Below, piece after piece: positions 1-52,756 of a stretch of DNA of 64,000 nt (position 1 is the first letter of the stretch; every line of letters begins with the position of its first letter). The position numbers and the translations under genes are program-made. The DNA is from a virus. Under the pieces are notes generated by a model that was not told where the DNA came from, searched no databases, and saw only the letters and a program-made list of their open reading frames with translations. Location: the IMG/VR virus record IMGVR_UViG_3300025000_000053, positions 1 through 64,000 of that record, one strand, 5' to 3'.

Positions 1-239
1 TTGAGTAATCCGCAGCCAAGTCTCTAATATATTAGAGAAAGGTTCAACGACTATCCTTTAGCTTTGAAATAAGCAACAGGAGTAGGGCTCAAGTGAGTGG
101 GTGAAAATCCCTTAAATCGAAATAGGAAGCTCCTTAATGAATAATTCATTAAGGATGAAGATATAGTCTAGTATCTTATCGAAAGATAAGGAAGTTCATA
201 AGAGAACTGTATTGTTTAACGAACAATATGAATATATCG
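1..239 (+). ncRNA. Group I intron, 3' half (copy 1, truncated by window edge)
   Basis: The segment is nearly identical to the 3' part of four other introns in this window (ending at 18694, 40915, 48210 on minus, 51650 on minus). Shared blocks include AATCCGCAG near the start, TTCAACGACTATCC (5' strand of P7), a block around 80-115 reading AGTAGGGCTCAAGTGAGTGG, and ATATAGTCT (3' strand of P7). By comparison with copies whose splice sites are fixed by protein continuity, the intron ends with the G at 239, after AATATATC. The loop that carries an HNH gene in copies 2 and 5 is short here (about 21-42), so this half carries no ORF. The 5' half and the 5' exon lie outside the window. Confidence 0.9.
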
Positions 240-856: not shown

Positions 857-890
857 ATTTTTATATATTTTTATTTAATTTTACCTAAAA

Positions 891-924
891 AAATAAAGGT
901 GTAATAATCCACCTTTATTTTTTG
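891..924 (+). terminator. Rho-independent terminator
   Basis: AAATAAAGGTG (891-901) pairs with CACCTTTATTT (910-920) and T residues follow. It closes the single-gene unit 524-856. Confidence 0.8.
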
Positions 925-959
925 TGTGTTCCTTGCTTAACACTATTATACTAAATTTT

Positions 960-1412
960 TATTTTCATGAACCCGTTTCCTACTATAAAAAGAAATGGGG
1001 GTGATTAAAGAATTGATAATACAATTTATATAAATATAAAACATATTTATCATAGATATTGATAATATTTTTAACTCAAATAATTTATATCTTCTATCAG
1101 TAAAATAACATATAGAAGGGAGGGATGCCTATATACACATAACGATGTATATGGGATAACCTCTAATTATTTGCGAGTTTAAAAATATTATCTTTATATA
1201 ACTTTATTTAGAATTCGCCTACAAACTCCCCATAGACACTTGTGTATATAGGCAATCTATGATGGATGGGGACACTATCGGTTTAGAATATGATGAAGAA
1301 TAATATGCTACCTATTTGTTACAATGAATTTAGATAGTGTGAAAAAATACCTACTATTTTACAATTAAATATGTTCCGATATAAATAGTAGTAATGGTGA
1401 ATTTATTTTTAT
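960..1412 (+). ncRNA. Candidate structured noncoding RNA (gene-free, hairpin-rich)
   Basis: No plausible coding frame lies between 857 and 1460. Instead there are successive complementary arms: CCCGTTTC 972-979 with GAAATGGG 992-999 (one G-U); CTTCTAT 1091-1097 with ATAGAAG 1112-1118; TGCCTATATACACA 1126-1139 with TGTGTATATAGGCA 1241-1254 (14 bp, perfect); nested inside it TATGGG 1150-1155 with CCCATA 1229-1234 and GAGTTT 1175-1180 with AAACTC 1223-1228; ACACTATC 1272-1279 with GATAGTGT 1333-1340; CTACTATTT 1351-1359 with AAATAGTAG 1383-1391. A terminator follows at 1420, consistent with a plus-strand transcript. Strand and exact ends are inferred. It could instead be a replication or packaging site with strong secondary structure. 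I cannot match it to a named large phage RNA class. Confidence 0.5.
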
Positions 1413-1419
1413 AAAATAA

Positions 1420-1458
1420 AAATAAAGCTCTGTGTAAATAATCCACAGAGCTTTATTT
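1420..1458. terminator. Bidirectional terminator
   Basis: AAATAAAGCTCTGTG (1420-1434) pairs with CACAGAGCTTTATTT (1444-1458), with T runs rightward and the complement of A runs leftward. It can end both the candidate RNA on plus and the gene 1461-1805 on minus. Confidence 0.8.
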
Positions 1459-1460
1459 TT

Positions 1461-1805
1461 TTATTTTTTTTCAATAACATCGGGTATAATTTCTGGTTTT
1501 AAATTTTTAATTTCTTTCTGTTCAGACTTAGTACTTTTATTACTTTGTATAGGAACATTTTGAATTACTACTGGTTTTGATTTAGGGATTTCTTCCTTTA
1601 TATCATTGTCTTTATCAAAATTACGAGCTGTTAATTTAATTTCAGTACCATCTTTAAGTACTTCAACAACATTAACACCTTTACTAATCATAGCAAAGAT
1701 AGTGGAAGTTTGTTCTGTATAAGGACTTAAGATTGGTCCATACACTCCACCCTTTGCCATAATAGGAGCTGTGCTAAGGATTTTAATATTTTTAGTTTTA
1801 ATCAT
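1461..1805 (-). CDS. Hypothetical protein, 114 aa, charged C-terminal tail
   Basis: It has an ATG start with GGAGGGTT upstream. The N-terminal half contains a short beta-rich stretch, with MAKGGVYGPILSPYTEQT near residue 16 and a K-D-G-T turn near residue 52. The last 50 residues are Lys/Glu/Pro-rich and look disordered. It is the last gene of the leftward group 3313-1461, directly after the acidic gene at 1828. The GVYGPILSPYTE segment resembles virion or assembly proteins more than enzymes, but that is an impression, not a match. Confidence 0.7.
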   Translation of the reverse strand: MIKTKNIKILSTAPIMAKGGVYGPILSPYTEQTSTIFAMISKGVNVVEVLKDGTEIKLTARNFDKDNDIKEEIPKSKPVVIQNVPIQSNKSTKSEQKEIKNLKPEIIPDVIEKK

Positions 1806-2122: not shown

Positions 2123-3313
2123 TTAGTTATTAGAAACAAATTTATTATAATAATATCGGAGAATAAATAATAACATAGGTATTTTAATATATGAATTAAA
2201 AGTATATTCCATATAATCATATTCTTCTAATTTTTCTAAATTTATATTATAAACTGAATCAATATGTTTATTAAAATAATCTACTAATAAATTTTCAATA
2301 ATAAAATCATCACTAAGTTTAACATCAGTCATTATACTATTTAAAACTTCTTCCTCAATATAATTATCACCACTATTAGTAAATGAAATAGAATTAACAT
2401 TATCCATATAATAAAGAAATATAGAATTATAATTTTGAATTATTGCATTGATATATTTAATACTTGTAGGTAAATTCTTTTTACCTCTTTCTAATAATCT
2501 ATAAATTGATTTCTCATATTCAATCACAAATGATAAACTATCATCTTCATTAACCAAACAAATTGTATTAAAATTATATTTTTCATTAAATAAGATATTA
2601 TTATTAATAAAATGATTTAAATATTTATCATAGAATTTATTACCAAATTCATTATTAAATATAAAGCAATTATATTTTTTATTGAAAAAAAATATTTTAT
2701 ACTTATCAGCTATATATCTATAAATTTCATTTAGTTTAAGTATTTTATAATAATCATCTTCTCGAATTAAACACTTTTCTTGTGTACCAATATTTCTTAA
2801 TACACAATTATATATTTCATTAATTTGATTTTCTAAATCCGTAACTAATTCTCCATAAGCTGATTTTAAAGTAAAAGAAATTTTATAATAATTATTACTC
2901 TTTATAGTATCATATTTAACTTCTGTTACCATAAATAAATAATTTTTATCTAAATATGAAATAGTAAAAAAATCATTTGGTAAAGGTTTAAGTGTATTAG
3001 GAAGAATAATAAGTTCACTATCAAAATTAGTTGTTAAACCCTCTTCTTCTTCACTTAATTCCAACATAATAGATTCTAAACCATATACAGGAAAGTCGTT
3101 TATCTTTTTAAACTTTAGTGGAGAATTTTCCCCTAATAAATCTTCAATATTTTCAAATCCACTATCAGTAATACTATTAATATTATCAATATTATAATAT
3201 GTAACAAATGTAGGATTTTTATCTAAAAATCTAGAATATTGAGAATTCATTCTTTCTTCATACTTAAAAATATTTTCATTAATAAAAGTTTTATCATCTA
3301 TTAAATATCCCAA
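2123..3313 (-). CDS. Hypothetical protein, 396 aa; possible virion protein
   Basis: It begins MGYLIDDKTFINENIF, with GAGAGGAG upstream of the ATG. It is long, Asn/Tyr/Ile-rich and has no membrane segment. Residues 60-150 read as a beta-rich domain (FPVYGLESIMLELSEEEEG, then LPNTLKPLPNDFFTISYLD); the rest is mostly helical. The N-terminal beta domain with its 'position/offset then property' look resembles small tail or baseplate proteins of myoviruses, which is only an impression. It heads the leftward group ending at 1461, and a 180-bp divergent intergenic region separates it from the rightward gene at 3494. Confidence 0.65.
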   Translation of the reverse strand: MGYLIDDKTFINENIFKYEERMNSQYSRFLDKNPTFVTYYNIDNINSITDSGFENIEDLLGENSPLKFKKINDFPVYGLESIMLELSEEEEGLTTNFDSELIILPNTLKPLPNDFFTISYLDKNYLFMVTEVKYDTIKSNNYYKISFTLKSAYGELVTDLENQINEIYNCVLRNIGTQEKCLIREDDYYKILKLNEIYRYIADKYKIFFFNKKYNCFIFNNEFGNKFYDKYLNHFINNNILFNEKYNFNTICLVNEDDSLSFVIEYEKSIYRLLERGKKNLPTSIKYINAIIQNYNSIFLYYMDNVNSISFTNSGDNYIEEEVLNSIMTDVKLSDDFIIENLLVDYFNKHIDSVYNINLEKLEEYDYMEYTFNSYIKIPMLLFILRYYYNKFVSNN

Positions 3314-4002: not shown

Positions 4003-4266
4003 TTAAATATAAAGTTTTTCTTTATACTCATTTAACATATAAATAGCATTATCCCTCTTATCAGTATAAAGTTCTAACAATTCTTGAGGTGACAATAAAT
4101 CCCAATTATCTGTGTCAATAATAAATCTACCATTTTTGTGAAGACTTTGCAATTCTTCTGAAGTAAGAATTAATTTTAGTTTCATATGATGAAATAACAG
4201 TCCTTCTTTCTCAGCTTTCGCAAATAAAGGTTGGAACATTTTTAAAATTTTTTGTTCCTGAGTCAT
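4003..4266 (-). CDS. Paralogue family A member 1, 87 aa, unknown function
   Basis: ATG start 8 nt after GGAGTG. The protein shares a layout with its neighbours at 4284, 4690, 5028 (C-terminal part) and 6440: a helical lead, A..EGLLF, a hydrophobic turn (LTSEELQSLHKNGRFI), then DNWDLLSPQELLELY and a final Lys/Glu helix. Conserved positions across the set are the hydrophobic pair after Gly-Leu, a Trp/Leu-Thr-Pro/Ser-Glu turn, and an N-W-x-L/R motif followed by a Pro-Glu helix cap. This copy has lost the two aromatic Trp seen at the first turn in its neighbours. It is last in the leftward array and just upstream of a terminator. Confidence 0.75.
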   Translation of the reverse strand: MTQEQKILKMFQPLFAKAEKEGLLFHHMKLKLILTSEELQSLHKNGRFIIDTDNWDLLSPQELLELYTDKRDNAIYMLNEYKEKLYI

Positions 4267-4283
4267 AAATAAATCACTCCAAA

Positions 4284-4568
4284 TTATTTTTTATAGGATT
4301 TTTGAATTCTTATTTTAAATGTTTCAAGCTGATTTTCAATATTCCTTTTCCTGCACTCTAACAACTTAACTTCTTCCATAGGATCCCTCAGTATCCAATT
4401 AGGTGGACCCCAAATAAATCGTCCTTCTATATGACATTTTCTTAATTCATCAGGAGTGAACCATGAACCCTCACGTTCCAAATAAAACCATAACCCTTTT
4501 TCATCAGCCTCTTTAAACATAGGCTCTAATGATTCTAAAATAGCATTAATATTTATTGAATTAAACAT
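4284..4568 (-). CDS. Paralogue family A member 2, 94 aa, unknown function
   Basis: ATG start after AGGGGTG. It shows the fullest family pattern: LEPMFKEADEKGLWFYLE (residues 13-30), GSWFTPDELRKCHIEGRFI (34-52), PPNWILRDPMEEVKLL (55-70) and a C-terminal basic helix. It lies 17 nt upstream of member 1, with which it is probably co-transcribed, and is preceded by the TATATATTATT box at 4603-4613. I do not know the family. The W-F-T-P-x-E-L element could be a protein-protein contact loop, which is speculation. Confidence 0.75.
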   Translation of the reverse strand: MFNSININAILESLEPMFKEADEKGLWFYLEREGSWFTPDELRKCHIEGRFIWGPPNWILRDPMEEVKLLECRKRNIENQLETFKIRIQKSYKK

Positions 4569-4602
4569 TTTATCACCCCTAAAATTTTATTCTTATTGTA
4601 TT

Positions 4603-4613
4603 AATAATATATA
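4603..4613 (-). promoter_or_regulatory. Candidate promoter box TATATATTATT (minus)
   Basis: Read on the minus strand this is TATATATTATT, 35 nt upstream of the ATG at 4568. The GTAT box at -20 is not present here. Confidence 0.4.
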
Positions 4614-4689
4614 TTTAATTTTTTAACCTGGTCAATCAAAGATTTTGAAATTTCTTTTTTCTTATGTTACATTATTTTATAACCTCCAT

Positions 4690-4974
4690 TTATAAATCAA
4701 CCATTATTCGTTTATCAGAAGGATTATCAATTGAATCTCTAACATTACTAATTAATTCTTCAATTTTTATTTTCTTAGATTCCAATCTTTTAATCAATTT
4801 TTCAGGATGTTCAAGTCTCCAATTTCTAGATTTAATAAGTTTTCTTTTCATTAAAGACTTAAATTCAGGCACATTATACCAACAACCACTATTCATACCA
4901 AGGAACCATAATCCATTTTCTTCGGCATCTTTAATCATTTGATTTAATATTTCTTGATTTTTATCATTTATCAT
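4690..4974 (-). CDS. Paralogue family A member 3, 94 aa, unknown function
   Basis: A GTG at 4983 overlaps the ribosome binding site region (AGGAGTG), so I take the ATG at 4974, 8 nt after AGGAG; the protein begins MINDKNQEILNQMI. The family pattern is clear: DAEENGLWFLGMNSGCWYNVPEF, in two parts around residue 20, then SRNWRLEHPEKLIKRLESKK. The C-terminus adds a short acidic/basic tail (DKRIMVDL) absent from the other members. A TATATATTATT box lies upstream at 5010-5020. Confidence 0.75.
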   Translation of the reverse strand: MINDKNQEILNQMIKDAEENGLWFLGMNSGCWYNVPEFKSLMKRKLIKSRNWRLEHPEKLIKRLESKKIKIEELISNVRDSIDNPSDKRIMVDL

Positions 4975-5009
4975 ATTAAACACTCCTAAAATTTATTATT
5001 CATTACTTT

Positions 5010-5020
5010 AATAATATATA
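5010..5020 (-). promoter_or_regulatory. Candidate promoter box TATATATTATT (minus)
   Basis: Read on minus this is TATATATTATT, about 36 nt upstream of the start at 4974, in the gap before the next gene's stop at 5028. Confidence 0.4.
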
Positions 5021-5027
5021 TATATAT

Positions 5028-5585
5028 TTAATTTTTTATATAATTTTCAATTTTATTTATCTCTAATTGTATTATTTCTTTTTTTTCATATAAAGAGTTA
5101 AGAATATCGTTATGACCACGTAACTCCCATTTTGTTTTACACATAATATATTCAATATTGTTATAATAATCTATTATTCCATTAGGTGTGAACCAAATTT
5201 TTAAAAATTCATCATAAAGTAATAACTTTTCATTCCTAGCTTTATTAATTAAAGATTCCAATGTTTTAAGATAATTAATTATTTCATTTTTACTAGAAAT
5301 AGAAAAAGATTCATTCCTAGATAAAATATTTGTATAATCAAACAATCCCTCATTAACTAGTTTATCCAAATAATCCGACTGAATAAATTCTATATCTAAA
5401 GGTTTAAAATTTAAAAAACTTACATCTACGTTACCGTATTTATAAATACGGTAGTTATATTCCATTTTACAAGCAGCCCTATAAATTTTAATTAGTTTAG
5501 TTATATCAATATTCTTTTGACATAATTCAAAATACCAGTCCATTAATAATATTGCTTTATCATTATAAAAAGAATTAAAAAGCAT
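5028..5585 (-). CDS. Hypothetical protein, 185 aa, with a C-terminal family A domain
   Basis: ATG start after GGGGGTC. The first ~95 residues (MLFNSFYNDKAILLMDWYF at the start, YNYRIYKYGNVDVSFLNF around 50) are unlike anything else here. From about residue 100 it follows the family A pattern: SLINKARNEKLLLYDEFL, IWFTPNGI, then KTKWELRGHNDILNSLYEKK and a final basic helix. It is therefore a longer family member with an extra N-terminal domain. It lies between a zincin gene upstream and member 3 downstream, in the same direction. Confidence 0.75.
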   Translation of the reverse strand: MLFNSFYNDKAILLMDWYFELCQKNIDITKLIKIYRAACKMEYNYRIYKYGNVDVSFLNFKPLDIEFIQSDYLDKLVNEGLFDYTNILSRNESFSISSKNEIINYLKTLESLINKARNEKLLLYDEFLKIWFTPNGIIDYYNNIEYIMCKTKWELRGHNDILNSLYEKKEIIQLEINKIENYIKN

Positions 5586-6207: not shown

Positions 6208-6443
6208 TTAATATTTTTTAATATAAAAATAACACCCTGGATACTCAACATAATGTATTTCAGTACCTGGTGTGGAGTCGTTATTAAGTGTATAACTAAC
6301 ACCATAATTACTACAACTTAATATATTTACAGCTATATATTCATCTTTTTACTAAATTTTTCATTATAAAATATTTCTTTACGACCCAATACTGCTTCAA
6401 CTAAATCCATAAATCTAGTTAATGGTGTATAATTTGGTTTCAT
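6208..6443 (-). pseudogene. Frameshifted small gene, about 78 aa if repaired
   Basis: ATG at 6443 overlaps the stop of the upstream gene (ATGA) and follows GGGGTGA. The frame reads MKPNYTPLTRFMDLVEAV to about residue 33 and then hits a stop. The -1 frame continues as DEYIAVNILSCSNYGVSYT and ends YPGCYFYIKKY before TAA at 6208. One extra A in the run of five A (T5 at 6346-6350 on plus) would join the two frames. The cause could be genuine decay, a programmed -1 shift on the A-rich run, or a sequencing deletion in the homopolymer. Function unknown. Confidence 0.6.
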
Positions 6444-6736
6444 TTAAAGTCACCCCAATTTAAAACTATATTTTTTATCACCTTAATAATATTATCAATT
6501 TTATTTTTTATTAAACCTTGTAACACTTCAAGTGTTGTTCGCACATCCCATTCATTGATATTAATTCTAGAACTTTGGTATAATATTTTAAATTCACTAG
6601 GACTAAGCCATTCATAACTTACAGTGTTATAAAATAAAAAACCTCCTGTCTTTTCCATATCTTCAACTAATTTATTTAAAGAATCTATTATTTCATAATT
6701 GAATATATGAGATTTATCAAAACCCTTGGATTTCAT
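6440..6736 (-). CDS. Paralogue family A member 4, 98 aa, unknown function
   Basis: The ATG overlaps the stop of the primase gene (ATGA, positions 6733-6736), which suggests translational coupling. Family A features are present but more diverged: LVEDMEKTGGFLFYNTVS, EWLSPSEFKILYQSSRI, NINEWDVRTTLEVLQGL and a terminal Lys/Ile helix. The gene is separated from the other members by the zincin and a frameshifted gene, so the family has spread within this leftward run. Confidence 0.7.
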   Translation of the reverse strand: MKSKGFDKSHIFNYEIIDSLNKLVEDMEKTGGFLFYNTVSYEWLSPSEFKILYQSSRININEWDVRTTLEVLQGLIKNKIDNIIKVIKNIVLNWGDFK

Positions 6737-10292: not shown

Positions 10293-11969
10293 CTAATGTT
10301 CCCTGTTAGTAATCATAATAGATATATATTGGTTACTGGATAGCAATAAAGATATTATAGATGTTGCAGCTTTTAAAATTTCAACATCCGTTTGACAAGA
10401 ATTAATAATATCTTTAGATAAACACTCATTAACCAAATCCCAACAAATCTTTCCACTAATACATGACTCAATTAATAAGTCAATTGAAAAATTAGCTTTA
10501 CCCTTAAATTTATTATCCATCACTTTACTGAATACTTCAACAAAAGCTTTTCTTAATAATTTTAAAAACCTTTTTTCAGTATCATTAAAATCAGTACACT
10601 CATTTAATAATTCATCTATTACAATCGGTATAATTAAATTACCACCAATATTATATCCATATTTAAATGCTGATTCACATGCTTTTACAGCATCTTCAAC
10701 CAAATCATAATTAGCAGTTTTTTCTAATGAAGAGTTACCACCAACATTTATTACTCCCATTTTACAAGAAAGTTTAGATACTCTTTGTTTTAAGTCATAA
10801 ATTTGACTATTAACAATATTTAAATTTTGATTAGTTTCTTCAACTTCTTTAAGTTTAGCAAGAGCATCATTTAAATATATATCATATGTGGTTTGTTTTA
10901 AAGAATTAAAACCTTTAATAACAGTTGCTTTACTTCCAATTGAAATTTTATCAACTTGCCCAATAAAATATTTGAAATAATCATCTTCTTTATTTTCTAA
11001 ATCAAATAAAGTATTTTCACCAATTAACATACCACCAGTCAACATACAAAAATCATTATAAAATAATTGTTGTAAATTATTAAATAATCCAACCCTTGTA
11101 TAAACAGTTCTACTAGTTCCAGTTGATCTAAATTCTATATTTGCTGTTTGAGAAATAAATTTTAATAACATTTGGTCATAATGTGGAGCTATTACAACAA
11201 CCCTTCTATCAGTTTTAATACCTAAATCAATTACTTTAGATATAATTTTATCAAAATGTGTTTTTTCAAGTTTATGATCAAACATAACGATTAAGGGATT
11301 TTCAATTTCACATATTCCATTTTCATTTTCAGCATATATACTATCTAAATAAGTTATATTAGCTTTATAACCTTCAATAATCTCACATGAAGTTATATTT
11401 GTTTTTGAAGGAGAAAATTCAATACTTGGATTTTTTGTTTCTTTATATATTGTATGGATTATATCTGACAGGGTATTATCACCATTAGTTGAAATCATTG
11501 CCAATTGATAGATCTCTTGATAATCATTATCCTTGGTAATTTTAACCGAAGATTGTAATATTTTATCTGTAATCATTTTAACACAAACAGATAAAATGTT
11601 AATAAAATCCCTAGGTCTTATTTTTTTTAATTCTGTATCTGAATCTAAAAGATTCAATATTGAATTGGCAGCAACTATTGATGATGAACTACCATCACCA
11701 ACTTTAATTACAACTTGTGATGCTATATTGATTAATAATTGTTTAATATTATTATCAATATTATTATCAGAATTGATATTTTTTAATATTTGCCAACCAT
11801 CTTTAGTAATATGCATTTCTCCGAATTTCTCGATTATTGTATTAGACCCATATGGTCCTAAACTTTTTTGTACAGCAGATGAAACTTTATCAAAAATCAT
11901 ATGAATACGTTGTTTAAAATCATCTTCACTAATAATATTCCAATTATTTGTTTCCTCAAAAGTAACCAT
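10293..11969 (-). CDS. Phage chaperonin, GroEL/Cpn60-like
   Basis: This is an ATP-dependent folding chaperonin subunit, probably acting on phage virion proteins. An ATG at 11987 overlaps the ribosome binding site (GGAGGTAGG), so I use the ATG at 11969, giving 558 aa, close to GroEL (about 548). Family signatures: LGPYGSN at 37-43 (nucleotide-binding P loop region), ITKDGWQIL at 54-62 and VGDGSSSSIVAA at 90-101, matching the GDGTTT catalytic loop with Ser for Thr; a C-terminal equatorial segment has GGNLIIPIV and later SCISGKICWDLVN. The middle (apical) part is poorly conserved. No GroES gene is visible nearby. Chaperonins are known from several giant phages. Confidence 0.85.
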   Translation of the reverse strand: MVTFEETNNWNIISEDDFKQRIHMIFDKVSSAVQKSLGPYGSNTIIEKFGEMHITKDGWQILKNINSDNNIDNNIKQLLINIASQVVIKVGDGSSSSIVAANSILNLLDSDTELKKIRPRDFINILSVCVKMITDKILQSSVKITKDNDYQEIYQLAMISTNGDNTLSDIIHTIYKETKNPSIEFSPSKTNITSCEIIEGYKANITYLDSIYAENENGICEIENPLIVMFDHKLEKTHFDKIISKVIDLGIKTDRRVVVIAPHYDQMLLKFISQTANIEFRSTGTSRTVYTRVGLFNNLQQLFYNDFCMLTGGMLIGENTLFDLENKEDDYFKYFIGQVDKISIGSKATVIKGFNSLKQTTYDIYLNDALAKLKEVEETNQNLNIVNSQIYDLKQRVSKLSCKMGVINVGGNSSLEKTANYDLVEDAVKACESAFKYGYNIGGNLIIPIVIDELLNECTDFNDTEKRFLKLLRKAFVEVFSKVMDNKFKGKANFSIDLLIESCISGKICWDLVNECLSKDIINSCQTDVEILKAATSIISLLLSSNQYISIMITNREH

Positions 11970-12048
11970 AACTTTTCCTACCTCCATTTTTATTCTTTTA
12001 GTCTTTAGAAATATGTTGTTTGTGTAGTTGTTTTTAATATTTTAGGGT

Positions 12049-17520: not shown

Positions 17521-18694
17521 AAATTACATTGGGGCTTAGTATAGTAATATACTTCGAACAACTTCTTTAATTGTCGGGGAAGCTCTAAGAGCCTAAAACT
17601 ACCAAGCTATAATAGTGATATTATGGTGGCTTAATCTAATCAATTAAGATACGGTAACAAGGTTTTAGGATTGAGTAATCCGCAGCTAAGATTCTTTACC
17701 TTAATAAAAAAATTAGAATAAAAAATATTGGGTTGAAATTGGAGGTGAAGTAATGAATGATAAATATTATGCTCGAAAAATGTTAATAATAATTAGACTT
17801 AAACCTACAATTTATAGAACTATTTATATTAATAATAATCCTACTAGGTATGAAGTTAGTAATTACGGTGATATTAGAAATAGTAAAACTAATTTGATTA
17901 TGAGACCTACTACTGATAATAAAGGATATATGAGGATTTGTTTAACTATTAATGGTAAAAAGATTACAAAAAAAATTCATAGATTAGTAGCAGAATGTTT
18001 TATTCATAAAAAATATAGTTTTCAAAATCAAGTTAATCATAAAAATAGGATTAGAAATGATAATTATGTATGTAATTTAGAATGGGTTACAGCTAAACAA
18101 AATCAGGAACATTCATATTTAGTTGGAGGACCAAGAAAAGTTAAAAAAGGTGAAAAGATGTTTAACGCTAAACACTATGAAATAGATATAATAAAAGTAT
18201 GTGAACTTTTAGAAAGAAAATTTAAATCAAAAGTAATTAATGAAATAACTGGTGTAAATAAACATGTTATAAATAAAATAAAAGAAGGTAAACTCTGGAA
18301 ACATATTTCAAAAGACTTTAATATACCTAGTCCTCGACAAAAAGAAATATATAGCTATAAATTAAAAGAAAGAATAAAAGAATTACTAATATTAAAACAT
18401 ACTTCAACCCAAATAATTAATATTTTAGATTTAGAATATAGTCAACCATATTATTCTTTAATCTTCAATATTAAGAATAAAATGAAAAAAGGTAAAGAAT
18501 AAAGTTCAACGACTATCCTTTAGCTTTGAAATAAGCATTAGGAGTAGGGCTCAAGTGAGTGGGTGAAAATCCCTTAAATCGAAATAGGAAGCATCTTTAA
18601 TAATAAAGATGATGATATAGTCTGGTATCCTAAGGAAAGCTTAGGGAAGTTCATAGGAGAACTGTATAGACTAACAATCTATATGAACTTTACG
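17521..18694 (+). ncRNA. Group I intron in RNAP beta-prime gene (copy 2, HNH-bearing)
   Basis: The 5' splice site is set by P1: exon ...TTCCCT pairs with internal guide GGGG in ATTGGGGCT, with the final U opposite G. The 3' end is the G at 18694 (ACTTTACG). Joining gives D-S-L-G-G-R-K-S-L, which aligns without gaps to the start of the bridge helix (bacterial S-T-H-G-A-R-K-G-L). P2 is AGTAT/ATACT after P1, P7 is GACTAT/ATAGTC. Core blocks TTTAATTGTCGGGGAAGCTC and AATCCGCAG are shared with the other copies. The HNH gene 17753-18502 sits in the loop before the P7 5' strand. Confidence 0.9.
17753..18502 (+). CDS. HNH homing endonuclease with NUMOD4-like N-terminus (intron-encoded)
   Basis: ATG start after GGAGGTGAAG. 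The N-terminal part (RYEVSNYGDIRNSKTN, about residues 34-49) fits NUMOD4. The HNH domain follows: KIHRLVAECFI, NQVNHKNRIRNDNYVCNLEWVT and QNQEHS, with the His-Asn-His residues in HRLVAE, NHKN and NLEW. Helix-turn-helix-like repeats fill the C-terminal 110 residues (VNEITGVNKHVINKIKEGK-like, ILDLEYSQPYY). It would cut an intronless copy of the RNAP gene and spread the intron. The stop codon lies just before the P7 strand, so the core is not disturbed. Confidence 0.9.
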   Translation: MNDKYYARKMLIIIRLKPTIYRTIYINNNPTRYEVSNYGDIRNSKTNLIMRPTTDNKGYMRICLTINGKKITKKIHRLVAECFIHKKYSFQNQVNHKNRIRNDNYVCNLEWVTAKQNQEHSYLVGGPRKVKKGEKMFNAKHYEIDIIKVCELLERKFKSKVINEITGVNKHVINKIKEGKLWKHISKDFNIPSPRQKEIYSYKLKERIKELLILKHTSTQIINILDLEYSQPYYSLIFNIKNKMKKGKE

Positions 18695-40529: not shown

Positions 40530-40915
40530 AATTTTTTAGCCCCAACATATAGTAATATATGTTAAAAACTTCTTTAATTGTCGGGGAAGCTCTTAGAGCC
40601 TAAAACTACTAAATTAATATAGTAATATATTAATGGCTTGGACTAATCAACCAAGGTATAGTAATAAGGTTTTAGGATTGGGTGATCCGCAGCTAAGATT
40701 CCTGTATACAGGAATAAAGTTCAACGACTATCCCATGGATCTAAAATGATCATTAGGAGTAGGGCTCAAGTGAGTGGGTGAAAATCCCTTAAATCGAAAT
40801 AGGAGACTCCTTATTATTTAATAATAAGGATGAAGATATAGTCTAGTATCCTAAGGAAATCTTAGGGAAGTTCATAAGAGAACTGCATAGATTAACGACC
40901 TATGTGAATATATCG
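40530..40915 (+). ncRNA. Group I intron in terminase gene (copy 3, no ORF)
   Basis: 5' splice after GGTAGGGGT: exon GGGGU pairs with internal guide GCCCC at about 40539-40543 (U opposite G). The stem AACATAT/ATATGTT right after is P2. P7 is GACTAT (40726-40731) with ATAGTC (40838-40843). The 3' end is the G of 40915 (AATATATCG). Splicing joins K-I-G-R-G to N-T-Q-P-I-Q-M-Y-D-E, so the break lies just before Walker B. Length 386 nt is identical to the portal intron. Confidence 0.9.
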
Positions 40916-42334
40916 AATACTCAACCAATTCAGATGTATGACGAAGTAGAATTTACGAGTTATATTAAAACTATTATTGAAGCTGCTGCCATGGCGTTTA
41001 AAACGGCTTCAGACAATGCTAAGAGAAATAATGCCCCTTATTCAAGGTCCCTACTCTCAACTCCTGGTGATCTCGATACTAAAGCTGGACAAGATGCCAT
41101 GGAAATAATTAGTAAGACATATAGATGGACTGAAAAATTTTATGATATGAAGATAGATGATGTTAAAGAAATTATAAAAAATAATTCAGAAAATAGGATA
41201 GTTTATATTGAATATGAGTATAAACAATTAGGAAAAGATGAAGAGTGGTTTAATGATTCATGTGCAATAATAGGTAATAACCCATTAAAAATTAAGAGAG
41301 AAATATTATTACAAAGAATGAGAGGTTCTTCTAATTCCCCATTTGAACCAGAAGATTTAGAACTTATTAGGGAAAAACAGGGTAAAATAATTGAAGAAAT
41401 CTTTATTAATAAATTATTTAGATTAGATGTTTATAAACCATTAGTAAGAGATAGGATATATTTTATATGTGTTGACGTTTCTAAAGGTTATGGTCAAGAT
41501 AATTCAGCCGTAGTAATATTAGACCCATATGAATTAAAACCTGTGGCAGAATTTGAATCGCCATATATAGGTGTAACTCAACTAAAGAATTTTTTATATA
41601 CACTTGTTAAAAAATATTTACCTAGAAGTATTTTATGTATTGAAAGAAATGAAAATGGTGAATCTATATTAGATGGATTGAGATATACTGATATAATGCA
41701 TAATTTATATTTTGATAAAGATAAAGATCCAATTGCCTCTCAATTAGATGATAGGATGGATAGTCAGGGATTTTTAAAACAAGAAGCTTTAAAACGTAAA
41801 TTATATGGAGTATGGACTGGAACTAAATCAAGACAAGTGATGTTTAGTTTGTTAGAAACACATATTGCAGAGTATAAAGATAATTTTATTTGTGCTAATA
41901 TTATTAATGATTTATTTAAATTAGTTATGAAAAAGAATGGTAAGATTGAAGCTGAGTCTGGATTCCATGATGATTCTATTATGGCTTATTTAATAGGATT
42001 GTATGTATATTATCATGGTAATAATCTACACTATTTTGGTTTTGTTAAGGGTCAGTTACCTGATGAGGAAGAAAGAAATAAAGGATTACAAACATATGAT
42101 GAGATAATGGAAGAAATGCCTGATGAAGAAAGACAATATTTCAATGAAAGTTTTGGTTCTAAATCTATAGATGATTATCAACAACATGTAATAGAAGAAC
42201 TTAAAAGAGTACAAAAAGAACAAAATAGTTTAATTAATATGAGTGGAATGATGAAACCCTCAACATATGCAGAAGAATATGATAATGATGAGAATGAAAT
42301 ATCATTAGATTTCTTTGATGAATTAAATAATTAA
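40916..42334 (+). CDS. Terminase large subunit, exon 2 (Walker B and nuclease)
   Basis: Begins AAT ACT CAA in frame with exon 1. Walker B is MYDEVEF (protein residues 222-228), followed by the coupling motif region and an RNase H-like nuclease: FICVDVSKGYGQDNS with the first catalytic Asp, CIERNENGESILDG with the Glu-containing strand, and FHDDSIMAYLIG with the last Asp pair. The C-terminal 80 residues are acidic and helical. The GTG at 40904, which looks like a start, is inside the intron. Confidence 0.9.
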   Translation, partial: NTQPIQMYDEVEFTSYIKTIIEAAAMAFKTASDNAKRNNAPYSRSLLSTPGDLDTKAGQDAMEIISKTYRWTEKFYDMKIDDVKEIIKNNSENRIVYIEYEYKQLGKDEEWFNDSCAIIGNNPLKIKREILLQRMRGSSNSPFEPEDLELIREKQGKIIEEIFINKLFRLDVYKPLVRDRIYFICVDVSKGYGQDNSAVVILDPYELKPVAEFESPYIGVTQLKNFLYTLVKKYLPRSILCIERNENGESILDGLRYTDIMHNLYFDKDKDPIASQLDDRMDSQGFLKQEALKRKLYGVWTGTKSRQVMFSLLETHIAEYKDNFICANIINDLFKLVMKKNGKIEAESGFHDDSIMAYLIGLYVYYHGNNLHYFGFVKGQLPDEEERNKGLQTYDEIMEEMPDEERQYFNESFGSKSIDDYQQHVIEELKRVQKEQNSLINMSGMMKPSTYAEEYDNDENEISLDFFDELNN

Positions 42335-47774: not shown

Positions 47775-48209
47775 TTATTGTTCAGTTGTTGCTTCATCAG
47801 GATTCTCTAATTTAAATTTTTCATACTCTAATTTAGAATCCTCTATCACTTCATCAAACATTCTCCAAGGTAACATAGGTAACATTTCTCTTGATGCCTT
47901 ATTCATAACAATATCTTTAATTTTATTATCTTTATCAGTTGGAGTAAGATTTTCACCTGTTGTTGTTTTTAACATAAATGCTAAAACTTGATCGGCGTTT
48001 GAAATTAAATCACTCATATTCATAGTATTTAATGCTTTTGGTAAATTTAAACTATATATAAAAGTTTCAATTATTTCTTGGGGTATTTCAGTACTAGAAA
48101 ATTTCATTACTTTTTTATAAAATTCAGTTATATTAGGGTTAAAATCAAGTTGATCACTTACAACTCTACCAATAAATTTAGCATTAGCCATAACTAAAGT
48201 TTTGGCATA
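47775..48209 (-). CDS. Portal protein, exon 2
   Basis: Exon 2 begins TAT GCC AAA ACT at 48209 and continues from exon 1 as N-E-A-D | Y-A-K-T-L, matching the conserved INEADY.. stretch of gp20-like portals. It adds a further 144 residues ending EKFKLENPDEATTEQ. The GTG at 48221, which looks like a start, is in the intron. Spliced length is 742 aa, larger than T4 gp20 (524). Confidence 0.85.
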   Translation of the reverse strand, partial: YAKTLVMANAKFIGRVVSDQLDFNPNITEFYKKVMKFSSTEIPQEIIETFIYSLNLPKALNTMNMSDLISNADQVLAFMLKTTTGENLTPTDKDNKIKDIVMNKASREMLPMLPWRMFDEVIEDSKLEYEKFKLENPDEATTEQ

Positions 48210-48595
48210 CGATATATTCACATAGGTCGTTAATCTATGCAGTTCTCTTATGAACTTCCTTATCTTTTGATAAGATACTAGACTATATCTTCATCCTTAT
48301 TATTTCTAATAAGGAGCTCTCCACTTCGATTTAAGGGATTCTCACCCACTCACTTGAGCCCTACTCCTGTTGATCATTTCAGATCCAATGGGATAGTCGT
48401 TGAACCTTTCTCATAGTAATACTATGAGACTTGGCTGCGGATCATCTAATCTTAAACATTATTACCTTACTCAGGTTAATTACTCCTGACCACTTATACC
48501 ATCGCTAATATAGTTTGGTAGTTTAAGATTTAAAGGCTTCCCCGACAATTAAAAGAGAATTGGTATTATAGATTGCTCTATAACCTGACTAATAA
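48210..48595 (-). ncRNA. Group I intron in portal gene (copy 4, no ORF)
   Basis: Minus strand. 5' splice after CTGAT (48596), which pairs with internal guide GTCAG, last U opposite G; 3' end G at 48210 (AATATATCG). P2 stem GTTATAG/CTATAAT follows P1. Core blocks identical in sequence type to the other copies. Length 386 nt equals copy 3. The exon joining restores NEADYAKTLVMAN. Confidence 0.9.
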
Positions 48596-51649: not shown

Positions 51650-52756
51650 CGTATTATTCACATAGGTCGTTAGTCTATGCAGTTCTCTTATGAACTTCCT
51701 TATCTTTCAATAAGATACCAGACTATATCATTAACCTAATAATTTCTTATTGGGCTACTTCCTATTTCGATTTAAGGGATTTTCACCCACTCACTTGAGC
51801 CCTACTCCTAATGATCATTTCAGACCCAATGGGATAGTCGTTGAACCTTTTACCTTTTTTCGTATTCTGTCAATAACATTTCTGACGGCGTCATTATTTT
51901 TTAAAAATAATTTTTCTTTGATTTCTTTATTACTAAATCCCATTTTAATTAAAGAAATTATTTCTTCCTTTAATTCAATAGGATATTTTAGAGTAAAGTT
52001 AAAATCTTTTTTGGGTGGGAACTCATATTTTTTTGTTACATGTCTCCAAAATTTTTTATAATATAACTCTGTAATATATGACTGGCTTAAATCATATTTC
52101 AATGAAAGTTCTTTTGTAGTTTTCCCTTTCACTAAATCATTACAGATTGATATGATTAATTTTTTAGGATATTTATTAAAATGACTCCGTTCCCCAATAC
52201 AGGTTAAACCAATATCCCTAGCATGTATAGAATTATCTTTATGAGTTGACCATTCCAAATTATTAGAATAATTATTTTTTACATTACCGTCTTTATGATT
52301 AACTACTGGAAGATTATCGGGATTGGGAATAAACGCTTTTGCGACTAATCTGCTAATTTGTCTTCTATATTGAATACCATTTATATATAAATTAACATAT
52401 TCCCGTTTATTTTTAAATTCATTATTTTTTAATATTCTTCCAGAAACAGAATTTCTAACTCTACCAAGATCGCTAATTAAATATTTAGTTTTAATATTAT
52501 TAATTATAATCGGTCTAAAAAATTCAACATTAACTTTCATATTTTTCACCCTTTCTTTTTATTAGCGTCTAAAGAGTTTAAAAGGAATTTTGGCTGCGGA
52601 TTACTCAATCCTAAAACCTTATTACTATACCTTAGTTAATTAGACTAAGCCATTAATATATCACTATATTAACTTAGTAGTTTTAGGCTCTAAGAGCTTC
52701 CCCGACAATTAAAGAAGTTTTCTATATATGTTACCACATATAGGGTCTAATAATTA
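51650..52756 (-). ncRNA. Group I intron in DNA polymerase gene (copy 5, HNH-bearing)
   Basis: Minus strand. 5' splice after ACGGTT (52757): exon GGUU pairs with internal guide GACC, U opposite G; P2 stem CTATATGT/ACATATAG. 3' end G at 51650 (AATAATACG). Joining gives F-R-Q-T-V | F-L-K-N-R-A. Core blocks as in the other copies; the HNH gene sits in the same loop as in copy 2, but its stop lies inside the core. Confidence 0.9.
51815..52540 (-). CDS. HNH homing endonuclease (intron-encoded), overlaps ribozyme core
   Basis: The ATG at 52540 is preceded by AAAGGGTG; a GTG at 52549 overlaps that site. N-terminal NUMOD4-like part (YLISDLGRVRNSVSGRILK), HNH domain SRLVAKAFIPNPDNLPVVNH then HKDGNVKNNYSNNLEWSTHK with the His-Asn-His triad, NUMOD/HTH-like C-terminus (TKELSLKYDLSQSYITELY; MGFSNKEIKEKLFL). 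The last 12 codons (KGSTTIPLGLK) are read through the P7 5' strand, so protein and ribozyme share about 36 nt. It should cut intronless polymerase genes. Confidence 0.9.
   Translation of the reverse strand: MKVNVEFFRPIIINNIKTKYLISDLGRVRNSVSGRILKNNEFKNKREYVNLYINGIQYRRQISRLVAKAFIPNPDNLPVVNHKDGNVKNNYSNNLEWSTHKDNSIHARDIGLTCIGERSHFNKYPKKLIISICNDLVKGKTTKELSLKYDLSQSYITELYYKKFWRHVTKKYEFPPKKDFNFTLKYPIELKEEIISLIKMGFSNKEIKEKLFLKNNDAVRNVIDRIRKKVKGSTTIPLGLK

Follow-up and report, generated by a model that had tools for sequence, protein, structure and literature searches.

For the region at positions 960-1412 of this viral genome, the initial annotation had proposed a large structured noncoding RNA with no gene inside it. 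The DNA analysed, here called the window, was the first 64 kb of a viral record of 249,853 bases. A comparison with related phages makes it likely, in our judgement, that the region is instead the mRNA of a micro-protein with a split ribosome-binding site, in which a helix would bridge the distance between the Shine-Dalgarno sequence (SD) and the start codon and would probably also form part of a two-state switch.

Genomic setting and fold of the region

The gene upstream of the region encoded an RNA polymerase beta-type subunit and was interrupted by group I introns, and among phages the structural protein encoded nearby at 2123-3313 (phrog_3013, Pfam head-tail joining) most closely matched AR9, PBS1 and Staphylococcus jumbo phages. 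Because of these structural-protein matches and the intron-broken polymerase gene, the virus is, as judged from its sequence, an AR9/PBS1-like jumbo phage. The record was collinear at its two ends, with the last ~22 kb (G000:228000-249853) matching window positions 1-21181 at about 80-89% identity, probably as the assembly ran round a circularly permuted genome into a second strain and produced a strain chimera. A second copy of the region in the same record was therefore no longer considered a duplication, since the collinear contig ends make it an orthologue. The copies are called A (the window), B (record positions 229,306-229,716) and C (contig 3300025010_000028, locus L012), and all three came from close relatives in one metagenome. 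No tRNAs were found in the 64-kb window. Mutually related group I intron 3′ ends were found at window positions 1-227, 18496-18694, 40676-40918, 48207-48453 and 51655-51850, where they interrupted genes for RNA polymerase, terminase and DNA polymerase, and HNH/NUMOD4 homing endonucleases were encoded in or beside introns at 17753-18502 (+) and 51815-52549 (-).

The RNA of 960-1412 had a minimum free energy of -99.8 kcal/mol and was more stable than shuffled sequences, with a z-score of -4.25 (-4.3 when rounded) on the plus strand and -3.3 on the minus strand; the plus strands of B and C gave z-scores of -5.1 and -5.9. The 14-bp arms that had been described (TGCCTATATACACA and TGTGTATATAGGCA) were an exact match, the nested 6-bp pairs TATGGG/CCCATA and GAGTTT/AAACTC were real and were kept in two orthologues, and the terminator described at the end of the region was found, as was a terminator-type hairpin on the other side (Table 1). 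A perfect inverted repeat of at least 14 bp was present in about 1-3% of the shuffles of A or B, so the length of the stem alone is not decisive, and what decides is its conservation with compensatory changes. The stem was maintained in B and C despite changes in both arms, arm-length changes included, and the arms thus covaried in two orthologues at the very helix for which covariation had been suggested as a check; the both-arm changes that separate B from A are natural compensatory changes. All wobble pairs were G-U on the plus strand and would be mismatches on the minus strand, which places the RNA on the plus strand. In C, ORF110 was only a broken remnant, showing that the RNA is independent of ORF110.

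As the initial annotation had stated, the RNA belonged to no family that could be named: a search with Rfam gave 0 matches at the gathering threshold for ROOL, GOLLD, OLE or riboswitch and leader classes in the window, and positions 1-2500 had no match even with the E threshold raised to 10. Among the relatives, the Rfam matches at E up to 0.5 were limited to group I introns that lay outside the interval and a sub-threshold, chance-level match to HCV_SLVII (L089, E 0.23). The matches to RF00028 (L011 2880-3168 and 1412-1772, L092 5620-5961) were all in the upstream RNA polymerase gene only. Two covariance models, R1 and R2, were built from A, B and C and recovered only these orthologues. Weak R1/R2 matches to Machias, BpSp and LPJP1 were put down to chance; the one in Machias lay antisense within a coding gene, and the one in BpSp was inside a predicted ORF. 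When the region was compared with phages and plasmids by BLAST, all matches were to low-complexity AT sequence, and degenerate core patterns gave only chance-level matches in viral and genome collections.

Table 1. Features in and around the region, in window coordinates (., no strand assigned)
Feature	Position	Strand	Remarks
Upstream terminator-type hairpin, 14-bp perfect stem	888-923	.	parts ORF110 from the RNA; also in B and C
Possible promoter AACACTATTATA	939-950	+	fits AR9 late consensus AACA-N6-TA; weak, not conserved in B/C
P0 hairpin CCCGTTTC/GAAATGGG	971-1000	+	near 5′ end of leader; kept in A/B/C, loop variable
D1 domain, SD-hiding fold	1070-1183	+	94-97% identity; SD unpaired probability 0.01
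D1 stem P1	1073-1085/1165-1179	+	computed fold
D1 stem P2	1091-1097/1112-1118	+	computed fold
D1 stem P3	1119-1123/1160-1164	+	computed fold
D1 hairpin P4	1127-1136/1146-1155	+	computed fold
SD GAAGGGAGG of micro-ORF	1115-1123	+	135 nt upstream of ATG
Bridging helix, 5′ arm	1126-1139	+	just after SD
Anti-SD AACCTCT	1158-1164	+	CCTCT pairs with GGAGG (P3) in SD-hidden fold
P5 closing stem GAATTCGCC/GGTGAATTT	1211-1404	+	encloses ORF domain
Bridging helix, 3′ arm	1241-1254	+	ends 4 nt before ATG
Micro-ORF MMDGDTIGLEYDEE, 14 codons	1259-1303	+	motif [DE]G[DE]T[IVM]G, six lineages
P7 stem ACACTATC/GATAGTGT	1272-1340	+	ORF interior to 3′ UTR
Downstream terminator-type hairpin	1413-1465	.	common to region and converging ORF114

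A micro-ORF with a conserved peptide motif

The description of the region as 450 gene-free nucleotides held to the extent that no ORF of at least 40 aa was found, but an ORF of 14 codons with a conserved motif was present. Distant relatives were gathered with the 3′ exon of the polymerase gene as bait, and a tiny ORF was located between the polymerase gene and the ORF114 homologue in the window lineage, L085, L092, L087 and L089. The encoded peptides were MMDGDTIGLEYDED in C, MDDRDDIILDGDTIGVEDDDNDNE in L085, MDEGEDIILEGDTIGGFE in L092, MNLYNIGDEDFDFVWEGETIGIEV in L087 and MRITLTDRILRSGPYEGETVGRPA in L089. In G003 the peptide was MDEENIFEGDSLVLDGETMGIESNEYVM, with the motif DGETMG, and the ORF adjoined the ORF114 homologue alone. 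In all, six AR9/PBS1-like phage lineages carried the motif in a tiny ORF adjoining an ORF114 homologue, and the length of the micro-protein varied from 14 aa in this phage to 28 aa.

Across the six motif codons, 11 of the 12 first and second positions were invariant and none of the 6 third positions, and this codon-wise conservation supports a coding rather than an RNA signature. Searched for as degenerate DNA, [DE]G[DE]T[IV]G matched once in each genome of five relatives and twice in the chimeric contig of this phage; these matches were confined to the tiny ORF by the ORF114 homologue, and the reversed-pattern control gave 0 matches. With a looser pattern, an additional match of the [DE]G[DE]TMG type was seen away from the micro-ORF locus in G006, the phage of L087 (86454-86470 (-), L120). 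The motif was not found in AR9, Machias, LPJP1 or BpSp, and tblastn of the peptide against the phage collection gave no match. This putative micro-protein, with its [DE]G[DE]T[IV]G motif, is previously unseen; gene finders drop ORFs that are this short or that have no adjacent SD, which would leave both the micro-protein and its start architecture invisible to annotation.

The AR9 early promoter is AAATATATATTAT-N6-G (PMC5312081). The leaders of L085, L092 and G003 began just after a match to this promoter, and in the window the motif was located at 464-477, before ORF110. The long L085 leader (6370-6610) also contained SD-led mini-cistrons upstream of the micro-ORF, encoding MECPG, MAFYDGERSPCT and MFSFITSGKYYKF.

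A candidate split ribosome-binding site

The distance from the SD to the ATG was 135, 138 and 136 nt in A, B and C, 400 nt in L085, 300 nt in L092 and 68 nt in G003. Two of the six lineages, L087 and L089, were without this split arrangement and had an SD directly upstream, with the ATG 8 and 6 nt beyond GGAGG, respectively. The four split lineages had in common that the stretch immediately following the SD paired with the stretch immediately preceding the ATG over 13-16 bp. With the arms in parentheses, the bridges were GGAGG-GA(UGCCUAUAUACACA...UGUGUAUAUAGGCA)AUCU-AUG in the window, GGAGG-GUAG(GCUACGUAUAUUC...GAAUGUAUGUAGU)AAGUAUU-AUG in L085, GGUGG-UGAAAA(GCUGCAUAUAUUAUAA...UUAUAAUAUAUGUAGC)CCUCU-AUG in L092 and GGAGG-GAAAU(14 bp)CAAUAUU-AUG in G003. 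The helix energies were -22.7 kcal/mol in the window (-22 to -24 in A/B/C), -20.6 in L085, -19.7 in L092 (16 bp) and -17.7 in G003, and were matched by 0, 2, 0 and 3 of 2000 shuffles, respectively. No other tested window of each RNA paired equally well with either arm. Each helix flanked both the SD and the ATG and covered neither. With the helix looped out, the effective spacing, counted from the last G of GGAGG or GGUGG, was 6 nt in the window, 11 nt in L085, 11 nt in L092 and 12 nt in G003, and thus exceeded the optimum in the three lineages with 11-12 nt.

The SD positions had first been picked by eye, and blind scans of SD-ATG pairs served as an unbiased check. When every SD-ATG pair 60-420 nt apart was scanned on both strands of the window (n = 1,023), the bridge of the micro-ORF ranked first by 6 kcal/mol. 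A blind scan of five other loci placed the micro-ORF site first in L103 (the phage of L085), L112 (the phage of L092, with a tie), L023, L012 and L009. The tie in L112 was with an SD-ATG pair at 11254/11313, 54 nt apart with a bridging helix of -19.7, which is possibly a second split site or merely a local hairpin. The arm sequences were unrelated between lineages, the loops shared no alignable sequence, and the far relatives yielded four independent helices. Since the arms pair in each split lineage even though their sequences are unrelated, it is whole-helix covariation that conserves the architecture.

We propose that the ribosome would bind the strong SD and that pairing of the two arms would loop out ~135 bases, leaving the SD about 6 nt from the ATG. 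Split sites were shown experimentally for genes 25 and 38 of T4, where the spacing is reduced from 27 to 11 nt and from 22 to 5 nt (PMC3014915). There, as proposed here, the SD is too far from the AUG and an RNA helix restores a working distance, and the hallmarks of the T4 type, an SD more than ~20 nt from the AUG and a helix giving about 6-12 nt of effective spacing, were found in four lineages. In contrast to T4, where about 16 nt are looped out, the loop here would span about 60-390 nt and thus be several to about twenty times longer. The helix is a long-range one of 13-16 bp with a built-in alternative fold that hides the SD, its sequences are wholly different between lineages, and the gene would encode a micro-protein of 14-28 aa. 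If true, this helix-guided selection of a start codon over 135-400 nt would extend the T4 principle by an order of magnitude. The ribosome-binding site of E. coli thrS (PMC3936740) likewise contains a structured domain, which is accommodated without unfolding. However, nothing linking the region to a tRNA synthetase or a tRNA-like domain was seen here, and it is the SD itself that a long-range helix sets apart from the AUG. In a limited literature search, no description of such long-range SD-AUG bridges was found.

Competing folds and alternative explanations

When A, B and C were folded to minimum energy, the 5′ arm paired locally in P4 and the GGAGG at 1119-1123 paired with CCUCU at 1160-1164 in P3. 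The probability that the SD was unpaired was 0.01 in A/B/C and 0.23-0.37 in L085, L092 and G003, and in G003 the AUG itself was predicted to be paired. Nested-energy models favoured the SD-hidden fold over the bridged fold by 10-16 kcal/mol; with the bridge as a pseudoknot that replaced P4, the totals were about equal before any pseudoknot penalty. The P4/P3 fold would hide the SD and break the bridge and would thereby compete with the bridged fold. Because the same 5′ arm joins either the local P4 or the bridge, the RNA is probably a two-state translational switch, with the SD hidden and far away in one state and free and delivered in the other; the two folds would act as off and on. The trigger could be co-transcriptional refolding, temperature or a factor; transcription would reach P4/P3 before the 3′ arm, and completion of the transcript might therefore cause refolding. 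Translational riboswitches, RNA thermometers and ribosomal-protein operators also have two exclusive folds, one of which pairs the SD with an anti-SD. They differ in that no known aptamer was seen here (no Rfam match) and in that the alternative fold would both free the SD and deliver it to a distant AUG. If true, this would be a natural strand-exchange switch for translation. Tentatively, and short of calling it probable, we suggest a class of switchable ribosome bridges in phage mRNAs, in which a strand either hides the SD locally or delivers it across hundreds of bases; the architecture would be kept while the helix sequences are replaced, and the switch would time the micro-protein with the [DE]G[DE]T[IV]G motif.

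The structured leader might instead merely repress the micro-ORF through P3/P4, with the long-range helix as a by-product and with initiation at a weak site by the ATG or by another mechanism. The SD-hidden fold is indeed the one of minimum energy in A/B/C, and in the window an AGG is present 7-10 nt before the ATG. We nevertheless regard repression alone as unlikely, given that the helix recurs in four lineages in the same position around both the SD and the ATG, that it outranks other bridges by a wide margin at nearly all of the scanned loci, and that the ATGs of L085 and L092 have no SD nearby.

Less probable still is a large structured noncoding RNA similar to ROOL or GOLLD in which the micro-ORF is coincidental. 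Like those RNAs (PMC12286853), the region is a large, strongly structured phage RNA in an intergenic slot of its own, set off by two terminators. The fold was strong in three orthologues, the leaders of L085 and L092 were long, and conservation was above that of the flanking genes (identity among the copies was 94-97% in the D1 core and about 91% in the D2 core compared to 59-91% in the flanking ORFs). Unlike ROOL and GOLLD, the region had no Rfam match, was shorter (about 0.45-0.5 kb), contained a conserved ORF and lay in a window without tRNAs. In two of the six lineages only a short ordinary SD-led ORF filled the slot. Since six lineages share a coding motif in the micro-ORF whose third positions vary freely, the region is probably not noncoding. 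Of the structured noncoding RNA first proposed, a structured RNA on the plus strand thus stands, but its noncoding nature most likely does not. The initial annotation had counted a match to a coding element against its proposal, and such an element is largely what was found: a conserved micro-ORF, to whose start codon the long hairpin would join a distant SD. If the mRNA reading is true, leaders of micro-genes may account for some of the structured RNAs regarded as orphans in giant phages.

Removal of the SD-ATG stretch from the RNA, as a self-splicing intron or a mobile insertion, is very improbable: group I introns are abundant in these phages and unsplit relatives exist (L087, L089), but the inserts of 68 nt in G003 and 135 nt in the window are too short for group I or II, and no Rfam intron match fell in the interval (E threshold of 10 for the window and 0.5 for the relatives).

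Elsewhere in the window, four adjoining small ORFs (87-185 aa; 4003-5585 (-)) resembled paralogues with a W-rich 'LWF...P.EL' pattern, and the two that were tested had no Pfam match. The phage also encoded a Cpn60/TCP-1 chaperonin at 10293-11987 (-) (Pfam PF00118, E 8.6e-22).
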